Source: a bacterium
GTDB lineage: Bacteria; Sumerlaeota; Sumerlaeia; MVZB01
Direction of reading: 5' to 3'
NCBI GenBank assembly: GCA_021372575.1
Contig: JAJFUE010000033.1
Span: 1-37,710, forward strand
DNA length: 37,710 bases
The notes under the pieces are model-generated. The model saw nothing but the letters and a program-made list of their open reading frames with translations, made no database searches and had not been told where the DNA came from. Of this stretch, positions 4,288-35,982 are shown piece by piece. Each line of letters begins with the position of its first letter. Position 1 is the first letter of the stretch. The translations under genes were made by a program, and so were the position numbers.

Positions 4288-6696
4288 ATGTTCGAGGAAG
4301 GCGAATTATCGTTTGCGTTCGGCGCGCCGGGGATCGAGCCCCGCTGGACGTCCAGCGCCAAGGAGGGGCTCGGCACGGCGTATCACACGAGCTGCCGGCT
4401 GTGGTTCACGCTCAGCCACGGCATCGTGAACGAAATCTATTACCCGCACGTCGATCAACCCAACACGCGCGACTTCGAATTTCTCGTGAGTGACGGCGAG
4501 CATTTCTGCCATGAGGAAAAGCGTGACCTGCGCCACGAGCTCGAATACCCCGACCGCAACTGCCCGTATTACCGGCTGACGAACACCGACCCGTTCGGGC
4601 GTTACCGGATCATCAAGGATGTGCTCACCGATCCGCACCGCTCGGTGCTGATCGTGAACACGAGGCTCGACGTCATCGACGAGGCGCTGCGCGGCAAGCT
4701 TCATTTGTATGCGCTGCTGGCGCCGCATCTTGCGCGTTTCGGCAAAAACAACACCGGCTGGCACACCGAAATCAGCGGGCTCAAGGTGTTATGCGCCAAG
4801 CGCGACGGCTATTACCTCGTCATGGGTTGCAGCAGCGGGTTCGTGAAGCGGTCGGCCGGCTACGTCGGCTCGAGCGACGGATGGCAGGACCTGATGCGCC
4901 ACCGCAAGATGGAATGGGGATTCACGGACGCGCCGGACGGCAACATCGCGCTGACCGGCGAGATCGACCTGCGCCGCGGCAACGAGGCGATGGTCGCGAT
5001 CGCGATCGGCGGCGGTTACCAGAGCACCGTCACCAAACTCATGCAGACGATGGCCGACCCGTTCGAGGCGCACCGCGACGGCTTCGTGCGCCAGTGGCAG
5101 CGCACGGTCGCCAACCATCCATCGACCTTCACCGAATGCACGGAACACACGGCCGATGGCGGGCACTTGTACCGCCTGAGCCGGTTCGTTCTGCTTTCGC
5201 ACGAGGACAAGGTGTTTCAGGGCGCGCTCGTGGCGTCGATGTCGATCCCGTGGGGCGAGACCAGGGGCGACAACGACGTCGGCGGCTACCACCTGGTGTG
5301 GACGCGCGACCTCGTGCAGAGCGCGACGGCGCTGCTCGCGGGCGGGCAGGCCGGCACGGCGCAGCGCGCGCTCATTTGGCTCGCGGCGATCCAGCACCCC
5401 GACGGCGCGTTCCCGCAAAACTGCTGGATCGACGGCACGGCATTCTGGAGCAACTTCCAGCTCGACGAAATCGCATATCCGATCCTGCTCGCGTGGCGGC
5501 TGCACGTCGAGAACGCGATGCCGCCGCTGTTCGAGCCGTGCGTGATGGTCATGACCGCCGTCGAGTATTTGATCCTGCATTGCCCCGTGACCGCTCAGGA
5601 GCGATGGGAGGAGAACGCGGGTTACTCGCCATCGACATTGGCCACGGTGATCGCGAGCCTCGTCTGCGCCGGAGAATTTTCGAGGCTGCGCGGCGACACC
5701 GAGACGGCCGATTTTATTTTGGCTTACGCCGACTGGCTCGCGGCGCACCTCGAGGAGTGGACCGTCACGATCCACGGCGAGCTCGTGCCCGGCAAGCCGC
5801 GCCACTACATCAGGATCAATCCGACCGACCCGTGGAATCCCGACCCGCACGCCGATCCCAACACGACGATGATCCAGGTCACCAACGGCGGCGGGCTGCA
5901 TCCGGCGCGCAACGTGGTGAGCGGCGATTTTCTGCATCTGGTCCGGCTGGGCATTCGCGACGCCCATGACCCGGTCGTGCTCGACTCGGTCGATGTGATC
6001 GATCGCGTGCTCAAGCGCGACCTGCCGGACGGGCCGTGTTGGCGGCGCTACAACCATGACGGCTACGGCCAGAAGGCCGACGGCTCCGCATGCGATGAAG
6101 ACGGAGGCGTCGGCCGCTCGTGGCCGCTGCTGACCGGCGAGCGCGGCCATTACGAGCTCGCCGCCGGCCGCGACCCGTTTCCGTTGATCACGGCGATGGA
6201 AAAGTTCGCCAACGAAGGAGGCATGCTCAGTGAGCAGCTTTGGGACGCCGACGACGTGCCGGCGCGCGAAATGTTCCGCGGCAAGCCGACGGGGGCGGCG
6301 ATGCCGCTGTGCTGGGCGCACGCCGAATACATCAAGCTCGTGCGCAGCCGCGGCGACGGCGTCTGTTACGACCGGGTCGATCCGGCGTTCGAGCGTTATG
6401 TGGCCAACCCCGTCCCGAGCCGCTACGAAATGTGGACGTTCCGTCACCCGATCCGCCGCATGCCGCGCGGCAAGATGCTGCGCATCATCGTCGGCGCCGA
6501 AGCCCGCGTCGTGTGGTCGGCCGACGGCTGGGCGAGCGTGAATCAAACGAAGACAACGGCCATGAGTTCGCTGCATCTGGAGTATGTGGATCTCCCGACC
6601 GATCGTCTTGCTGCCGGTTCAACGATCGAGTTCACGTTCTTCTGGGAACAAGCCCAACGTTGGGAAGGAAGGAATTTTGAGATATCCATCCAATGA
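4288..6696 (+). CDS. Glycoside hydrolase family 15 glucoamylase / glucodextranase-like
   Basis: The enzyme hydrolyses terminal alpha-1,4 (and often alpha-1,6) glucosyl bonds of starch, glycogen or dextrins, releasing glucose. The 802 residues comprise an N-terminal beta-sandwich domain (opening FAFGAPGIEPRWTSSAKEG, with WFTLSHGIVNEIYYP), the (alpha/alpha)6 catalytic barrel and a short C-terminal beta domain. The expected acid motif WEENAGYSPST lies near residue 440 and the base motif SEQLWD near residue 647, spacing that fits bacterial family members. GERGHYEL, also conserved, lies between them. The frame could begin at TTG 4231, but family alignment and a GGTGGG stretch favour ATG 4288. I see no signal peptide, so it is probably cytoplasmic. 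Together with downstream gnd and zwf it suggests glucan breakdown feeding the oxidative pentose phosphate pathway. Confidence 0.92.
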   Translation: MFEEGELSFAFGAPGIEPRWTSSAKEGLGTAYHTSCRLWFTLSHGIVNEIYYPHVDQPNTRDFEFLVSDGEHFCHEEKRDLRHELEYPDRNCPYYRLTNTDPFGRYRIIKDVLTDPHRSVLIVNTRLDVIDEALRGKLHLYALLAPHLARFGKNNTGWHTEISGLKVLCAKRDGYYLVMGCSSGFVKRSAGYVGSSDGWQDLMRHRKMEWGFTDAPDGNIALTGEIDLRRGNEAMVAIAIGGGYQSTVTKLMQTMADPFEAHRDGFVRQWQRTVANHPSTFTECTEHTADGGHLYRLSRFVLLSHEDKVFQGALVASMSIPWGETRGDNDVGGYHLVWTRDLVQSATALLAGGQAGTAQRALIWLAAIQHPDGAFPQNCWIDGTAFWSNFQLDEIAYPILLAWRLHVENAMPPLFEPCVMVMTAVEYLILHCPVTAQERWEENAGYSPSTLATVIASLVCAGEFSRLRGDTETADFILAYADWLAAHLEEWTVTIHGELVPGKPRHYIRINPTDPWNPDPHADPNTTMIQVTNGGGLHPARNVVSGDFLHLVRLGIRDAHDPVVLDSVDVIDRVLKRDLPDGPCWRRYNHDGYGQKADGSACDEDGGVGRSWPLLTGERGHYELAAGRDPFPLITAMEKFANEGGMLSEQLWDADDVPAREMFRGKPTGAAMPLCWAHAEYIKLVRSRGDGVCYDRVDPAFERYVANPVPSRYEMWTFRHPIRRMPRGKMLRIIVGAEARVVWSADGWASVNQTKTTAMSSLHLEYVDLPTDRLAAGSTIEFTFFWEQAQRWEGRNFEISIQ

Positions 6697-11100: not shown

Positions 11101-11119
11101 ACAGACGGAATTTGAATTT

Positions 11120-11232
11120 GACCCTGAAAGGGTCGCATAGTTCAGCAGCCCAGGGTGGAGCGAGGCTGTTGCGAGCGAAACCCTGGGACCAGATGCAAAA
11201 AATATGTCAGAGCCCTGAAGGGGCGGCATAGT
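11120..11232. repeat. Palindromic intergenic repeat, family A-like diverged copy
   Basis: The stretch holds an ACCCTGAAAGGGTCGCATAG box, a CCCAGGGT...ACCCTGGG inverted pair with GGAGCGAGGC/GCGAGCGA between, and a terminal AGCCCTGAAGGGGCGGCATA box. The architecture is that of the repeats at 6724 and 14465 with different sequence. It stands directly before the RAYT-derived start at 11314. Confidence 0.65.
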
Positions 11233-11313
11233 GGGATGTGCGTGTTAGTTAACAGGGATGTTCGGTTATTTGTTTTTTCTTGAGAATATGGGAATCATGA
11301 TCAAAGCTGATTC

Positions 11314-12771
11314 ATGGTTCGAATGGCGCGCATTGTCTTGGCCGGGGTTCCGTATCACGTGACGCATCGCGGCAATCAGCGGTGCGATAATTACTGGCTT
11401 GGCCTGAACAAGATCGCCGAGGAGCGGATCGTGGATGATACGGACACTGTAATCCATCGCGCCGATAGTGAGGCAGCGTCCACGCCCACCGGCAACGGCT
11501 GGGGGATCTACTCACCCAATGGCGGCGAGACGCTTGAATACACGACCGATGCCGCGCGCGGGAAGGTCCTGCATGTCGCGGGGACCACTTCCGCCAACGG
11601 CATCATCGGCGACGCCTATGGCTCCAACTTTAATCCCAACGGCACGGAATGGGGCGTGCAGGGGCGGCGGCAACTCGGATTCTGGCTTAAGAACGACGGA
11701 CGGACGACGATCCAGATCAACGTTTATTGTCGCACGAGTGCAGGTCTGGGCCTCCTTGTGTTCCTGACCAACACCGGCACGGACTCGAACGCCGGATGGG
11801 GTTACATTTACCACCTTGCGAATTCGGACAGGTTCCCGACGATCAACGACGGCAACTGGCACTACATCGAACTGGATCTGGGAACGTATCAAACGCAGTT
11901 CTCCGGCGTCGCCGACGCCGTCACCCACGTCGACGGCATGATGTTCTGCATCGGCGCAACACAAATCCACGTCGACGACATCATCGTCAGCGCCGGGGCA
12001 GTGGAACGCAGCTATGCTCTCATTCCTAAATCAGTAATAAATGGGTATATGGGTGTGCAAACGGGAGTATGTTGTTCTAATAATTTATCAGCTTGGGATA
12101 GATATTACTATCATTTGAGTGATTTGGGTTCAGTAATGGCAACAACAAATTTATATGGAATAATAATGGGTGTATACGAACCGGATTATTGGGGCAAATA
12201 CCGCTTTGTGAATGCCAATAAACCAGACTCAATGACTATAACAGGCCGGTTTGAAGATAGTGAAGCTGGAATAATTAATTACCGCTACAGATGGTATGAT
12301 TCGAGCCGAGGAAGATGGCTTTTACAAGAGCCATTAGGCTGGAGCGAGAACCTGTATGGTTATTGCGGGAATGATGTAGCAAATGGATTCGATTATATGG
12401 GGCTTGCCCATGTTCACAATGTTGATTGTGATAATTTAGCCTTTGAACCCGAAAGTAGTCAGGGGTGCTATGAGAATTTCAAAATCTATAAACTTCCACA
12501 CCACAGCGGTGCCGACGTGGATGTAGTATATGGTTCTACATCAGGAATTAAAATAGTGGATGGATGTCGTGGAACATGTAGAAAAAACTCAAAAGGGCAA
12601 TCAATACTGACTATAAAATGTGGCCCCATTTCTGGTTTGAGACAGTGGTTCTCCGGCGGCTATATTAACCCTAGAGATTACGGCCCTGTGTTTCCTGGTC
12701 CCGATTGGCCGAGAAATGATTATCATGGCATGAACGGTGAGAAGGGATGTCCTCGAAAATGCAAAGAATAA
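11314..12771 (+). CDS. Chimeric ORF: RAYT leader + jelly-roll domain + RHS core tip + Cys-rich tail
   Basis: The 485-residue frame seems assembled from parts. Residues 4-23 (MARIVLAGVPYHVTHRGNQR) are the standard start of REP-associated tyrosine transposases, but the HUH domain is missing. About residues 45-235 look like a carbohydrate-binding-type jelly roll (GWGIYSPNGG, LGFWLKND, GNWHYIELDL, THVDGMMFCIG). About 245-365 is an RHS-repeat core tip: YYYHLSDLGSVMA, ITGRFEDSEAGIINYRYRWYDSSRGRWL, NLYGYCGNDV, DYMGLA. About 120 residues follow with seven Cys, as toxin-like C-terminal domains do after an RHS core. Base composition drops sharply in GC near 12020. There is no signal peptide and no long YD-repeat shell, so the protein is probably a remnant. 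The tail may still be a functional cassette. Confidence 0.65.
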   Translation: MVRMARIVLAGVPYHVTHRGNQRCDNYWLGLNKIAEERIVDDTDTVIHRADSEAASTPTGNGWGIYSPNGGETLEYTTDAARGKVLHVAGTTSANGIIGDAYGSNFNPNGTEWGVQGRRQLGFWLKNDGRTTIQINVYCRTSAGLGLLVFLTNTGTDSNAGWGYIYHLANSDRFPTINDGNWHYIELDLGTYQTQFSGVADAVTHVDGMMFCIGATQIHVDDIIVSAGAVERSYALIPKSVINGYMGVQTGVCCSNNLSAWDRYYYHLSDLGSVMATTNLYGIIMGVYEPDYWGKYRFVNANKPDSMTITGRFEDSEAGIINYRYRWYDSSRGRWLLQEPLGWSENLYGYCGNDVANGFDYMGLAHVHNVDCDNLAFEPESSQGCYENFKIYKLPHHSGADVDVVYGSTSGIKIVDGCRGTCRKNSKGQSILTIKCGPISGLRQWFSGGYINPRDYGPVFPGPDWPRNDYHGMNGEKGCPRKCKE

Positions 12772-13178
12772 ATATGCCGTTTATATCATGGACGCACATT
12801 AGAAAAATATATTGCGTTCTATTTGCTCTAGCCTTTGCGGGCATGCTTCTTGTGTTCTATGTTTTCTTGAGACTTGATGCTTTTAGCAATTCTGTTACGT
12901 TCTATGAGAAAATGATAAGTTACTGTTTAGGGGGTTACACGACGTATTCGGGATGTTTTACGCAATCTGATTTCAAGAAAATCAAAATAGGAATGAGTGC
13001 GCATAACGTCATATTAATGCTTGGATCGCCAATATCAATCGTGCAAGGACCTAACAGTAATTATTACCATTACACAAGCATGAAACATGATAGAACTCGA
13101 TGGCTAAAAGTCGTTGAGATCGACAACAAGACATCCTCAGTATTATCTATTTACGATGGTTTGTATATTGATCCTTAA
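12759..13178 (+). CDS. Small membrane-anchored protein, possibly immunity or BamE/SmpA-like
   Basis: The frame starts at ATG 12747, 12759 or 12774 and overlaps or abuts the end of the RHS-type ORF (stop 12769-12771). I list 12759 but cannot decide. It has one transmembrane segment (IYCVLFALAFAGMLLVFYVF) near the N-terminus and an outside domain of about 100 residues. FKKIKIGMSAHNVILMLGSP recalls the BamE/SmpA-like fold. Base composition is AT-rich, like the preceding RHS tail. Position directly after an RHS C-terminal region is where immunity genes are found, so it may neutralise the Cys-rich tail. No family match is certain. Confidence 0.6.
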   Translation: MQRINMPFISWTHIRKIYCVLFALAFAGMLLVFYVFLRLDAFSNSVTFYEKMISYCLGGYTTYSGCFTQSDFKKIKIGMSAHNVILMLGSPISIVQGPNSNYYHYTSMKHDRTRWLKVVEIDNKTSSVLSIYDGLYIDP

Positions 13179-13202
13179 TTCGGTGACAGCTACCAGCGCT
13201 GG

Positions 13203-13245
13203 AATATCGGGGGAATATCGGGAATATCGGGGGAATATCGGGGAC
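13203..13245. repeat. Short tandem repeat AATATCGGG
   Basis: Four imperfect copies of a 9-11 bp unit (AATATCGGG plus 0-2 G) follow each other. The sequence next to them (GACGTGCACGAATGGCACTG) reminds me of repeats that accompany Y1-type transposases. Confidence 0.6.
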
Positions 13246-13286
13246 GTGCACGAATGGCACTGACTTAAGCTCCAACGCATAAAGAA

Positions 13287-13634
13287 TCAACGATTTCTCT
13301 TGGGCACGCCCTCGGTTGTGAGTTCGAGGATTCGGCGCGACACATCGCGCAGGGCGGTTAGGGTCTGCTCCAAGCGGCGCTGGTTGGCGATGGCGCGCTC
13401 GAAGGCGCGGCGTTGGCCGGCCGACAGATTCACCGTGACCGTTTTGCCCGCCTGTTTCCATGTCCATTGATAGTATGGACCGTAAACCTTCGCCCGGCCC
13501 GAATCGGCCGACACCGCCCGGCGCGGACGAACGACGCTGATCGTGCCCTGCAGCACGAGGCCCGGCTCGGCCAGGCGCGCGGTGAGGCGTGCATGGCGGC
13601 GTCTCAAGGCTGACAACTCGCGCTCGCTCGTCAT
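13287..13634 (-). CDS. DUF6788-like small protein next to transposase
   Basis: The 115-residue basic protein starts at ATG 13634, with GGAAGGAA just upstream. The middle contains LVLQGTISVVRPRR...GPYYQWTWKQAGKTVTVNLS, the pattern I associate with DUF6788-like proteins. In that family it follows a short Cys-rich motif, which is absent here. The C-terminal half is helical (LSAGQRRAFERAIANQRRLEQTLTAL). Such genes commonly accompany transposases. Here it is transcribed away from the IS4-type fragment starting at 13714, with 79 bases between the two starts. Function is unknown. Confidence 0.65.
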   Translation of the reverse strand: MTSERELSALRRRHARLTARLAEPGLVLQGTISVVRPRRAVSADSGRAKVYGPYYQWTWKQAGKTVTVNLSAGQRRAFERAIANQRRLEQTLTALRDVSRRILELTTEGVPKRNR

Positions 13635-13713
13635 CGCTTCCTTCCTTTCCCGTCACGCATCATCCCCGATTTGTGTGGCATTTTCCAGCCCCCTAAACTA
13701 CAAGTATATATAC

Positions 13714-14352
13714 ATGAAGTATTGCCGTCAAATCCCCCCGCCGGAGCCCCCGCCCATGATGCCCTCGCCCCCGCCGCACCGCCTCCCCGGCCGTCTGCGC
13801 CAGATTCAGGCCCTGCCCCTCCATGATCTGCAGAAGCTGGCCAGCCCGTTGATCACCCTGCCCGGCGCCCTTCGCGGCGCGCGCGACCGCGTCTATCCAT
13901 TGCGCCAGGTGTTCTGGATCTTCCTGGCCCAGATTCTGGCGGCCGATAAATCCTGCGCCCACGCCGTGGCCGCCTGGCAGGCCATGCTCGCCCCGCTGGC
14001 CCGCTTCATGCCCTCGCCCGGCACGGCCGCCTACTGCCGCGCCCGCGCGCGCCTGACCTTGGGCGACCTGCGCGCCGTCTGGCGCACCCTGACCGGCCGC
14101 TTGGCGCAACTGGAGCCGCCCCACGGCATGTGGCATGGCCGCGTCGTCAAGGTCGTTGATGGCTCGTCCGTCTCGATGCCCGACACGCCCTCCAACCAGC
14201 GCCGCTGGCCTCAGCCGCAAGGCCAGAAGCGCGGCTGCGGTTTTCCCGTCATGCGCCTCGTTGTGCTGTTTTCCCTCTCAAGCGGGGTGGCCCTTGCCTG
14301 GGTCTGGGGATCGCTGCGGGTCGCCGAGTTTCGGGGACGCTCTACAAAATAG
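13714..14352 (+). pseudogene. IS4-type DDE transposase, C-terminally truncated
   Basis: The readable part is the N-terminal half of an IS4-family transposase. It has a helical DNA-binding region (LPGRLRQIQALPLHDLQKLA) and AYCRARARLTLGDL. The first catalytic Asp lies in VVKVVDGSSVSMPDTPSNQRRWPQ, followed by GCGFPVMRLVVLFSL. Normal members exceed 400 residues; here the frame ends after about 212, before the second Asp and the Glu. The homologous part stops near 14320, where the sequence joins a different coding tail in another frame. Start could be ATG 13714 or 13756. It cannot be active. Confidence 0.75.
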
Positions 14353-35358: not shown

Positions 35359-35982
35359 ATGCCCAGGTACTACCGACGGCATCTTCCTCATGGTGCGCCG
35401 GAAAATTCGGCCATTTTTATTACCTTTAATCTGAAGGGCTCCTTGCCCCAGCGAGCTTTGGGCCAAATAAAGCAACTCCGGAAGCAGTTCGAAAAGTACG
35501 GGGATGATTCCAATCCTGCCCGACTGGAACTTTCAAAACAGATTTTTCGGATCACGGAACATTTTCTGGATAAGGCACAAGACGGTCCTCTTTACTTGCA
35601 AGATCCTCGATGTGCAGAAATCGTTTCGAATAAAATTATCGAGGGCGCGCGCGAGTATTACGACCTTTTCGCCTTTGTTGTGATGGCCAATCACGTTCAC
35701 CTTCTTTTGAATCCGATCGTAAGCCTTGAGAGAATAACCGCGGGAATCAAGAAGTCTACTGCGCGCCCAATCAATTCGCTCCTGCACCGAACCGGGCAAC
35801 CGTTTTGGCAGGACAAATCGTTTGATCACCGGCCTCGGGATCCGGATCGATTTTTAAGATTTCTGAGTTATATTGAAAGCAATCCGGTAAAAGCGGGCTT
35901 GTGCGCAAGCCCGGGAAAGTGGCCTTGGTCTTCGGCTCCGATGCGCTCAAAATGGCCCAAAGGGACACCCTTCCGGGCATGA
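35359..35982 (+). CDS. REP-associated tyrosine transposase (RAYT, Y1_Tnp)
   Basis: RAYTs are single-copy HUH nucleases related to IS200/IS605 TnpA that act on REP sequences. The 207-residue protein shows AIFITFNLKG at the N-terminus and the HUH pair in VMANHVHLLLNP (His112, His114). TARPINSLLHRTGQPFWQDKSFDH and the C-terminal YIESNPVKAGL follow. Length and motifs look complete. It is bracketed by hairpins with the same stem in opposite orientation (35276-35330 and 35988-36011), the classical REP-RAYT arrangement. I could not assign the nucleophile Tyr with confidence. Confidence 0.9.
   Translation: MPRYYRRHLPHGAPENSAIFITFNLKGSLPQRALGQIKQLRKQFEKYGDDSNPARLELSKQIFRITEHFLDKAQDGPLYLQDPRCAEIVSNKIIEGAREYYDLFAFVVMANHVHLLLNPIVSLERITAGIKKSTARPINSLLHRTGQPFWQDKSFDHRPRDPDRFLRFLSYIESNPVKAGLCASPGKWPWSSAPMRSKWPKGTPFRA

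Follow-up and report, generated by a model that had tools for sequence, protein, structure and literature searches.

A probable dissociated Rhs tip with a cysteine-rich tail and a BamE-like partner behind a transposase start in the class Sumerlaeia

How does a reading frame come to begin like a transposase and to end like the tip of an RHS protein? This question is raised by a locus on a 37,710-nucleotide stretch of DNA from a bacterium of the class Sumerlaeia (hereafter the window), which is contig C168 of an assembly of 4.63 Mb in 214 contigs, 95.6% complete. An earlier note, made from the letters alone, had described a single frame joining the start of a RAYT transposase, a jelly-roll domain (here called beta-sandwich), an RHS core tip and a Cys-rich tail, followed by a small membrane protein. 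Our analysis bears out this order, and both frames are open (Table 1); they overlap by 25 bases. The first runs for 1455 bases without a stop or visible frameshift. In 20,000 base shuffles, its low-GC part (756 bases, 12013-12768) never stayed open, nor did the frame of the partner, P0002 (likewise 0/20,000), for which alternative starts exist at 12759 and 12774. An AlphaFold model of the 485-aa protein was unusable (pLDDT 30), and a PADLOC run on the locus gave no lead. We consider it likely that the locus is a dissociated (orphan) Rhs C-terminal cassette, made of a truncated core, a toxin-like tail and an adjacent putative immunity gene.

Table 1. Features of the locus (positions in the window)
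Feature	Position	Strand	Evidence
Dispersed repeat copy, ~125 bp, REP-like	11107..11232	.	many of 47 own-genome matches; best ~90% identity over length
RAYT (Y1_Tnp) 5' fragment, source of start codon 11314	11255..11382	+	88-92% identity to RAYT starts at C1, C76
485-aa open frame (P0001)	11314..12771	+	23-aa RAYT start and RHS C-terminal fragment; frame checked open
RHS linker and beta-sandwich ('jelly-roll') module, 60% GC	11383..12012	+	aligns with RHS proteins of G092, G022, G015
Linker and RHS core tip ending in DYMGL, 39% GC	12013..12405	+	TIGR03696; alignment; GC change point 12011/12012
121-aa tail, 7 Cys, putative toxin domain	12406..12768	+	no detectable homologue
P0002, 143-aa TM-anchored BamE-like protein, putative immunity protein	12747..13178	+	Pfam BamE, TM helix, G016 relative
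RAYT-end-like motif ending in CGGGGACGTGCAC	13221..13251	+	exact 13-mer at three genome places
Truncated IS4-like element, inverted repeat CGAATGGCACTGACTTAAG	13251..14328	+	85% identity over 1083 columns to intact C171 copy

The start codon is indeed borrowed from a transposase, as had been supposed. The DNA of the RAYT 5' fragment is 88% identical to the start of the RAYT gene at C1 and 92% identical, over 113 bases, to that at C76, where an intact copy sits; the codon at 11314 is thus the transposase's own. Residues 1-29 show 54-84% identity to RAYT starts of the same genome over 24-29 aa, and the first 23 residues of the 485-aa protein are RAYT-derived; the Y1_Tnp catalytic domain had no match in this protein in a Pfam scan. 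An exact 34-bp match to RAYT ends at 11382 and is the longest exact repeat there among the own-genome loci compared, while positions 11383-13220 have no second copy in the genome, which argues for a real junction at about 11382. The dispersed repeat directly upstream of the RAYT fragment has dozens of partial copies in the genome and is possibly its REP-like partner. A second RAYT-like gene is present in the window, where a 207-aa ORF (35359-35982) partially matches Y1_Tnp (23.1 bits, cut-off 23).

The earlier note had called the frame chimeric, which is true of the RAYT join at 11382 but not of what follows. RHS sequence begins at 11383 with a linker, followed by the beta-sandwich and a tip of about 110 aa; a full RHS shell with its N-terminal delivery domain is missing. 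The RHS core profile TIGR03696 matches residues 293-364 with 41.2 bits (cut-off 32.5) and is aligned to its last position (76 of 76). The region before the tip aligns with RHS-type proteins of G092 (E = 2.9e-8, within a 1937-aa frame), G022 (E = 4.7e-5) and G015 (E = 3e-4). The Pfam family Glce_b_sandwich matches the beta-sandwich of G092 at 7.7e-7 and the G015 copy at 0.021; the copies in the window and in G022 had no match in the Pfam scan. In three genomes of the window's class (G022, G015 and G025), a 'GLTEEIVK'-like segment is followed by the beta-sandwich, an 'SNS.TVEHNVLGPG'-like linker, a YD-type segment and the tip. Their module order is that of the window, but they carry different tails. 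We therefore rejected a beta-sandwich/RHS-tip chimera, this order being native in relatives. That G036:C166 has the same linkers with the beta-sandwich missing marks the latter as an optional module. Within the genome itself, the only other RHS gene, C115, lies on another contig and gave no beta-sandwich match, so that the assembly, 95.6% complete, shows no same-subtype acceptor. The tip of C115 is 32% identical to that of the window; no intact rhs gene with a nearly identical core stands at the locus, though a donor may have been lost or left unassembled.

A sharp fall in GC had been reported at about 12020, and we computed the best change point at 12011/12012, where GC drops from 60% to about 39% (0.598 in 11383-12019, 0.39 in the linker and tip, 0.433 in the tail and 0.368 in P0002; three neighbouring stretches have 0.61-0.69). 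The step falls where two RHS modules meet, which is what exchangeable low-GC Rhs tips would lead one to expect. What had been taken for a chimera is therefore a native RHS layout whose base composition changes where the beta-sandwich module ends. From 12012 to the last base of P0002, the low-GC DNA has the appearance of a single exchangeable cassette, in agreement with the proposal that tip, tail and partner were acquired together. An assembly error at 12012 was rejected as first choice, since no repeat is present at that position.

For the tail, neither a Pfam scan up to E = 10 nor a PDB search below E = 1 gave a match, and these searches recognised no Lipocone/ColM-like catalytic domain in it. 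Pattern scans of one genome each from 84,980 species recovered no close relative of either the tail or P0002; a scan of phages with the tail pattern gave no match, and 99 relatives yielded only weak matches for both proteins. Among these, a tail match in G012 was discounted because it lies on the strand opposite a long frame that belongs to a different gene. As the tail has no homologue, it is its position behind the core that argues for a toxin, and we regard it as probably a new disulfide-rich one. The toxin end of the window tip thus appears to be new; stray tips of such kind are already known. Word searches of an open-access literature library found nothing on Cys-rich Rhs tails among the matches listed.

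P0002 passes the cut-off of the BamE profile PF04355 marginally (23.5 bits versus 23.2) and has one hydrophobic N-terminal helix, modeled with block pLDDT of 84-96 for residues 11-40. The model is weak outside this TM helix, and a fold search with it returned no significant match; pattern scans of viral contigs and plasmids gave no close relative either. Membrane-anchored BamE-like immunity proteins have recently been described for envelope-acting polymorphic toxins (PMC12419801). P0002 fits this type, and may accordingly protect against the tail. A related arrangement is found in the same class at G016:C112 (L079), where the gene after a 111-aa RHS tail with 9 Cys encodes a TM+BamE-like protein (Pfam E = 0.057, which does not reach the cut-off). 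This partner resembles P0002 over 56 aa (E = 7e-7, in a single pairwise comparison). However, the G016 RHS frame is 864 aa long, its tail is not significantly similar to that of the window (E = 0.061), and a short intergenic gap stands in place of the overlap. Among the 127 partner ORFs of tips with a tail of at least 40 aa, only these two proteins are clearly alike. In the class, BamE-like proteins have no general link to RHS tips: of 18 other BamE matches, just one shares its contig with a listed RHS place (G008:C110), at a distance of about 7 kb. Eleven BamE-match loci of the class, read by eye on the forward strand only (the matches of L099 and L107 are on the minus strand), gave no lead. 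BamE is not among the best 25 of 36 Pfam families listed for 68 of the 70 partners from outside the class, two very long ORFs being excluded.

Is the cysteine content of the window tail exceptional? TIGR03696 occurs in 25 of 39 class genomes, at 70 places; many of these frames are short, and several places lie in tandem on a single contig. Successions of at least two short RHS tips with different tails and partners were observed at G015:C2, G015:C9, G016:C229, G025:C267, G031:C199, G037:C497, G003:C23 and G010:C607. Many other class tips lie near contig ends, and such tandem arrays are therefore probably under-assembled. At four of the 70 places the frame runs off the end of the stretch without a stop; of the other 66, three have tails shorter than 40 aa and six have no partner ORF. 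For comparison outside the class, we took 80 regions among the matches listed, dropped G181 and G123:C5, where the profile match stopped early, as well as three with an open end, and used the remaining 75 (one tail shorter than 40 aa, four regions with no partner ORF). The profile that found the outside set was built for the most part on class tips whose tails are Cys-rich; any resulting bias would be towards Cys-rich tails in that set. Calling a tail Cys-rich when it has at least 3% and at least 4 Cys, we counted 30 such tails out of 63 in the class versus 8 out of 74 outside, among the matches listed. Pooled tail residues, again among the matches listed for the outside set, contain 2.54% Cys in the class (298/11,729) versus 0.99% outside (142/14,416; Mann-Whitney p = 6e-6, relatedness ignored). 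Genome means point the same way, at 3.6% (23 genomes) versus 1.6% (37 genomes among the matches listed; p = 0.0016, relatedness likewise ignored). In an earlier subset of the class, Cys makes up 0.70% of the RHS sequence that precedes the tail (118/16,917).

Partners of these tips were classified as membrane proteins by a hydropathy/lipobox heuristic whose thresholds were chosen after a first look, and the loci compared are not independent. A first partial set linked Cys-rich tails to membrane partners (p = 0.020 overall, 0.043 in the class), and this link weakened once all 70 class places were considered: membrane partners follow 22 of 27 Cys-rich and 17 of 30 Cys-poor tails in the class (p = 0.052), 6 of 7 and 41 of 63 outside, among the matches listed (p = 0.41), and 28 of 34 and 58 of 93 when both sets, the outside one limited in the same way, are combined (p = 0.035). 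That a Cys-rich tail predicts a membrane partner was thus not upheld as a rule. A Pfam scan of 40 partner proteins (39 of the 41 class partners plus P0002, two doubtful short ORFs being excluded) identified Imm11, SUKH (SMI1_KNR4) and ankyrin repeats, in one protein each, directly downstream of class tips. All three are counted among immunity families (PMC3482391).

On its right side, the cassette is bounded by a truncated IS4-like element. The window retains about 1.08 kb of this element, including a DUF6788 ORF and an Nterm_IS4 match below cut-off; the intact copy on C171 is 1903 bp long (4442-6344). The sequence CGAATGGCACTGACT at its start (13251) occurs exactly at four genome places, two of which are the inverted ends of the intact C171 element. 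The 13-mer that closes the preceding RAYT-end-like motif has its only other exact copies at the two ends of the intact C76 RAYT. In the window and at C1, as well as on one of the two sides at C171, the end of the IS4-like element directly adjoins a GGGGACG-like RAYT-end motif, which suggests a target preference. Low-GC small genes were also seen beside RAYT at C76 (8500-16500, L246; GC 0.36-0.49), including those of a 117-aa membrane protein and a 156-aa lipoprotein-like one, and at C1 (43433-46578, L245; GC about 0.35). RAYT copies or an internally deleted RAYT adjoin the C1 and C76 genes, as in the window.

To explain the locus, we propose that an RHS gene may have lost all sequence upstream of its beta-sandwich module. 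Left over would be the last part of the RHS shell, the exchangeable low-GC tip, whose Cys-rich tail is probably a toxin, and the adjoining immunity gene. This cassette may have landed behind the RAYT fragment, and the frame would stay open thanks to the start codon and the 23 residues that this fragment supplies. RHS tails are released by self-cleavage at the core end. After recombination into a full-length RHS protein in the same lineage, the window tail could be released in this manner and delivered to a rival, whose oxidising envelope would let it fold with its disulfides formed and would also be where it acts. Neutralisation would fall to P0002, anchored in the inner membrane and exposing its BamE-like domain to the periplasm. 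We infer toxicity and immunity here, as well as the site of action, for which the disulfides and the membrane-anchored BamE-like partner point to the envelope. The orphan cassette itself would be a silent tip donor rather than a working weapon.

The same features may be read as those of a dead RHS gene, its frame open by accident and unexpressed, with tail and P0002 drifting as relics among dead transposons. Neither shell nor delivery domain is present, the start is borrowed, a truncated RAYT and a truncated IS flank the locus, and Jackson et al. hold dissociated tips to be likely functionally silent (PMC2935791). However, drift sits poorly with 1455 open bases free of frameshifts, with a low-GC part and a P0002 frame that each stayed open in none of 20,000 shuffles, and with a P0002 that retains a recognisable BamE domain and TM helix; we hold a dead remnant to be rather unlikely. 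It is improbable that the disulfide-rich tail serves instead in structure or adhesion and that P0002 has nothing to do with immunity, being an assembly or lipoprotein-like factor. Cys-rich tails are numerous across the class, no catalytic family was found in this one, and classical BamE serves in outer-membrane assembly (PMC12419801), yet tails vary between tips after a conserved core, as in polymorphic toxins, and recognised immunity families stand behind other class tips.

A further reading concerns the surroundings: RAYT elements or their end motifs may capture and carry low-GC toxin/immunity genes within the genome. Three loci (the window, C1 and C76) do have low-GC small genes adjoining RAYT copies or remnants, and the window and C1 share the order RAYT 5' piece, low-GC gene, GGRGACG-type motif and IS end. 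Three is the number of loci compared, however, against 13 Y1_Tnp matches in the genome; the end motif at 13239 is oriented opposite to the RAYT right end, and an IS4-like element inserted at such a motif explains the right boundary. A shared landing site accounts for the data equally well, and we give little credence to RAYT-mediated carriage.

Beyond the preferred reading of the locus as an orphan Rhs cassette, we may tentatively hypothesize, though the odds are against it, that the class holds a large, lineage-enriched arsenal of envelope-acting, disulfide-rich Rhs tips with membrane-anchored immunity proteins, that the window tail is a new fold with a BamE-like antidote, and that stray cassettes gather beside RAYTs and may pass on from there. 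If the toxin/immunity reading is true, an unrecognised Cys-rich toxin tail joins a BamE-like immunity type and points to Rhs warfare that acts in the envelope, in a class that has received little study. The class-wide Cys excess in Rhs tails is a testable lead on disulfide-dependent effectors, and for genome annotation the locus illustrates how an ordinary orphan tip that has borrowed its start can pass for a 'chimeric' gene.

As regards known systems, P0002 shares with the BamE-like immunity proteins of PMC12419801 a TM anchor and a BamE-like domain directly downstream of a polymorphic-toxin tip. In the sections of that paper drawn on here, the partners are Min-Wnt, CapCone and ColM-like toxins, whereas ours is a Cys-rich RHS tail with no such domain detected. 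With Rhs toxin/immunity systems as portrayed in parts of PMC3150448 and PMC10539506, the window has in common that a small gene, here of putative immunity function, comes after an exchangeable C-terminal region; it differs in having no delivery shell and no recognised toxin fold. Our reading likens the locus to the dissociated tips of enterobacterial rhs loci, described as low-GC partial cores that are likely silent (Jackson et al. 2009, PMC2935791) and that form a pool for replacing the tip of an intact rhs gene. By comparison with what the pertinent sections of that paper describe, the window has no full rhs gene upstream, a beta-sandwich before the tip, a GC step upstream of the core tip and a RAYT start codon. 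However, it has the same partial core, RHS tip, unique low-GC tail and downstream low-GC region, and a partial core with a unique low-GC tail and a downstream gene is what defines a dissociated tip there.
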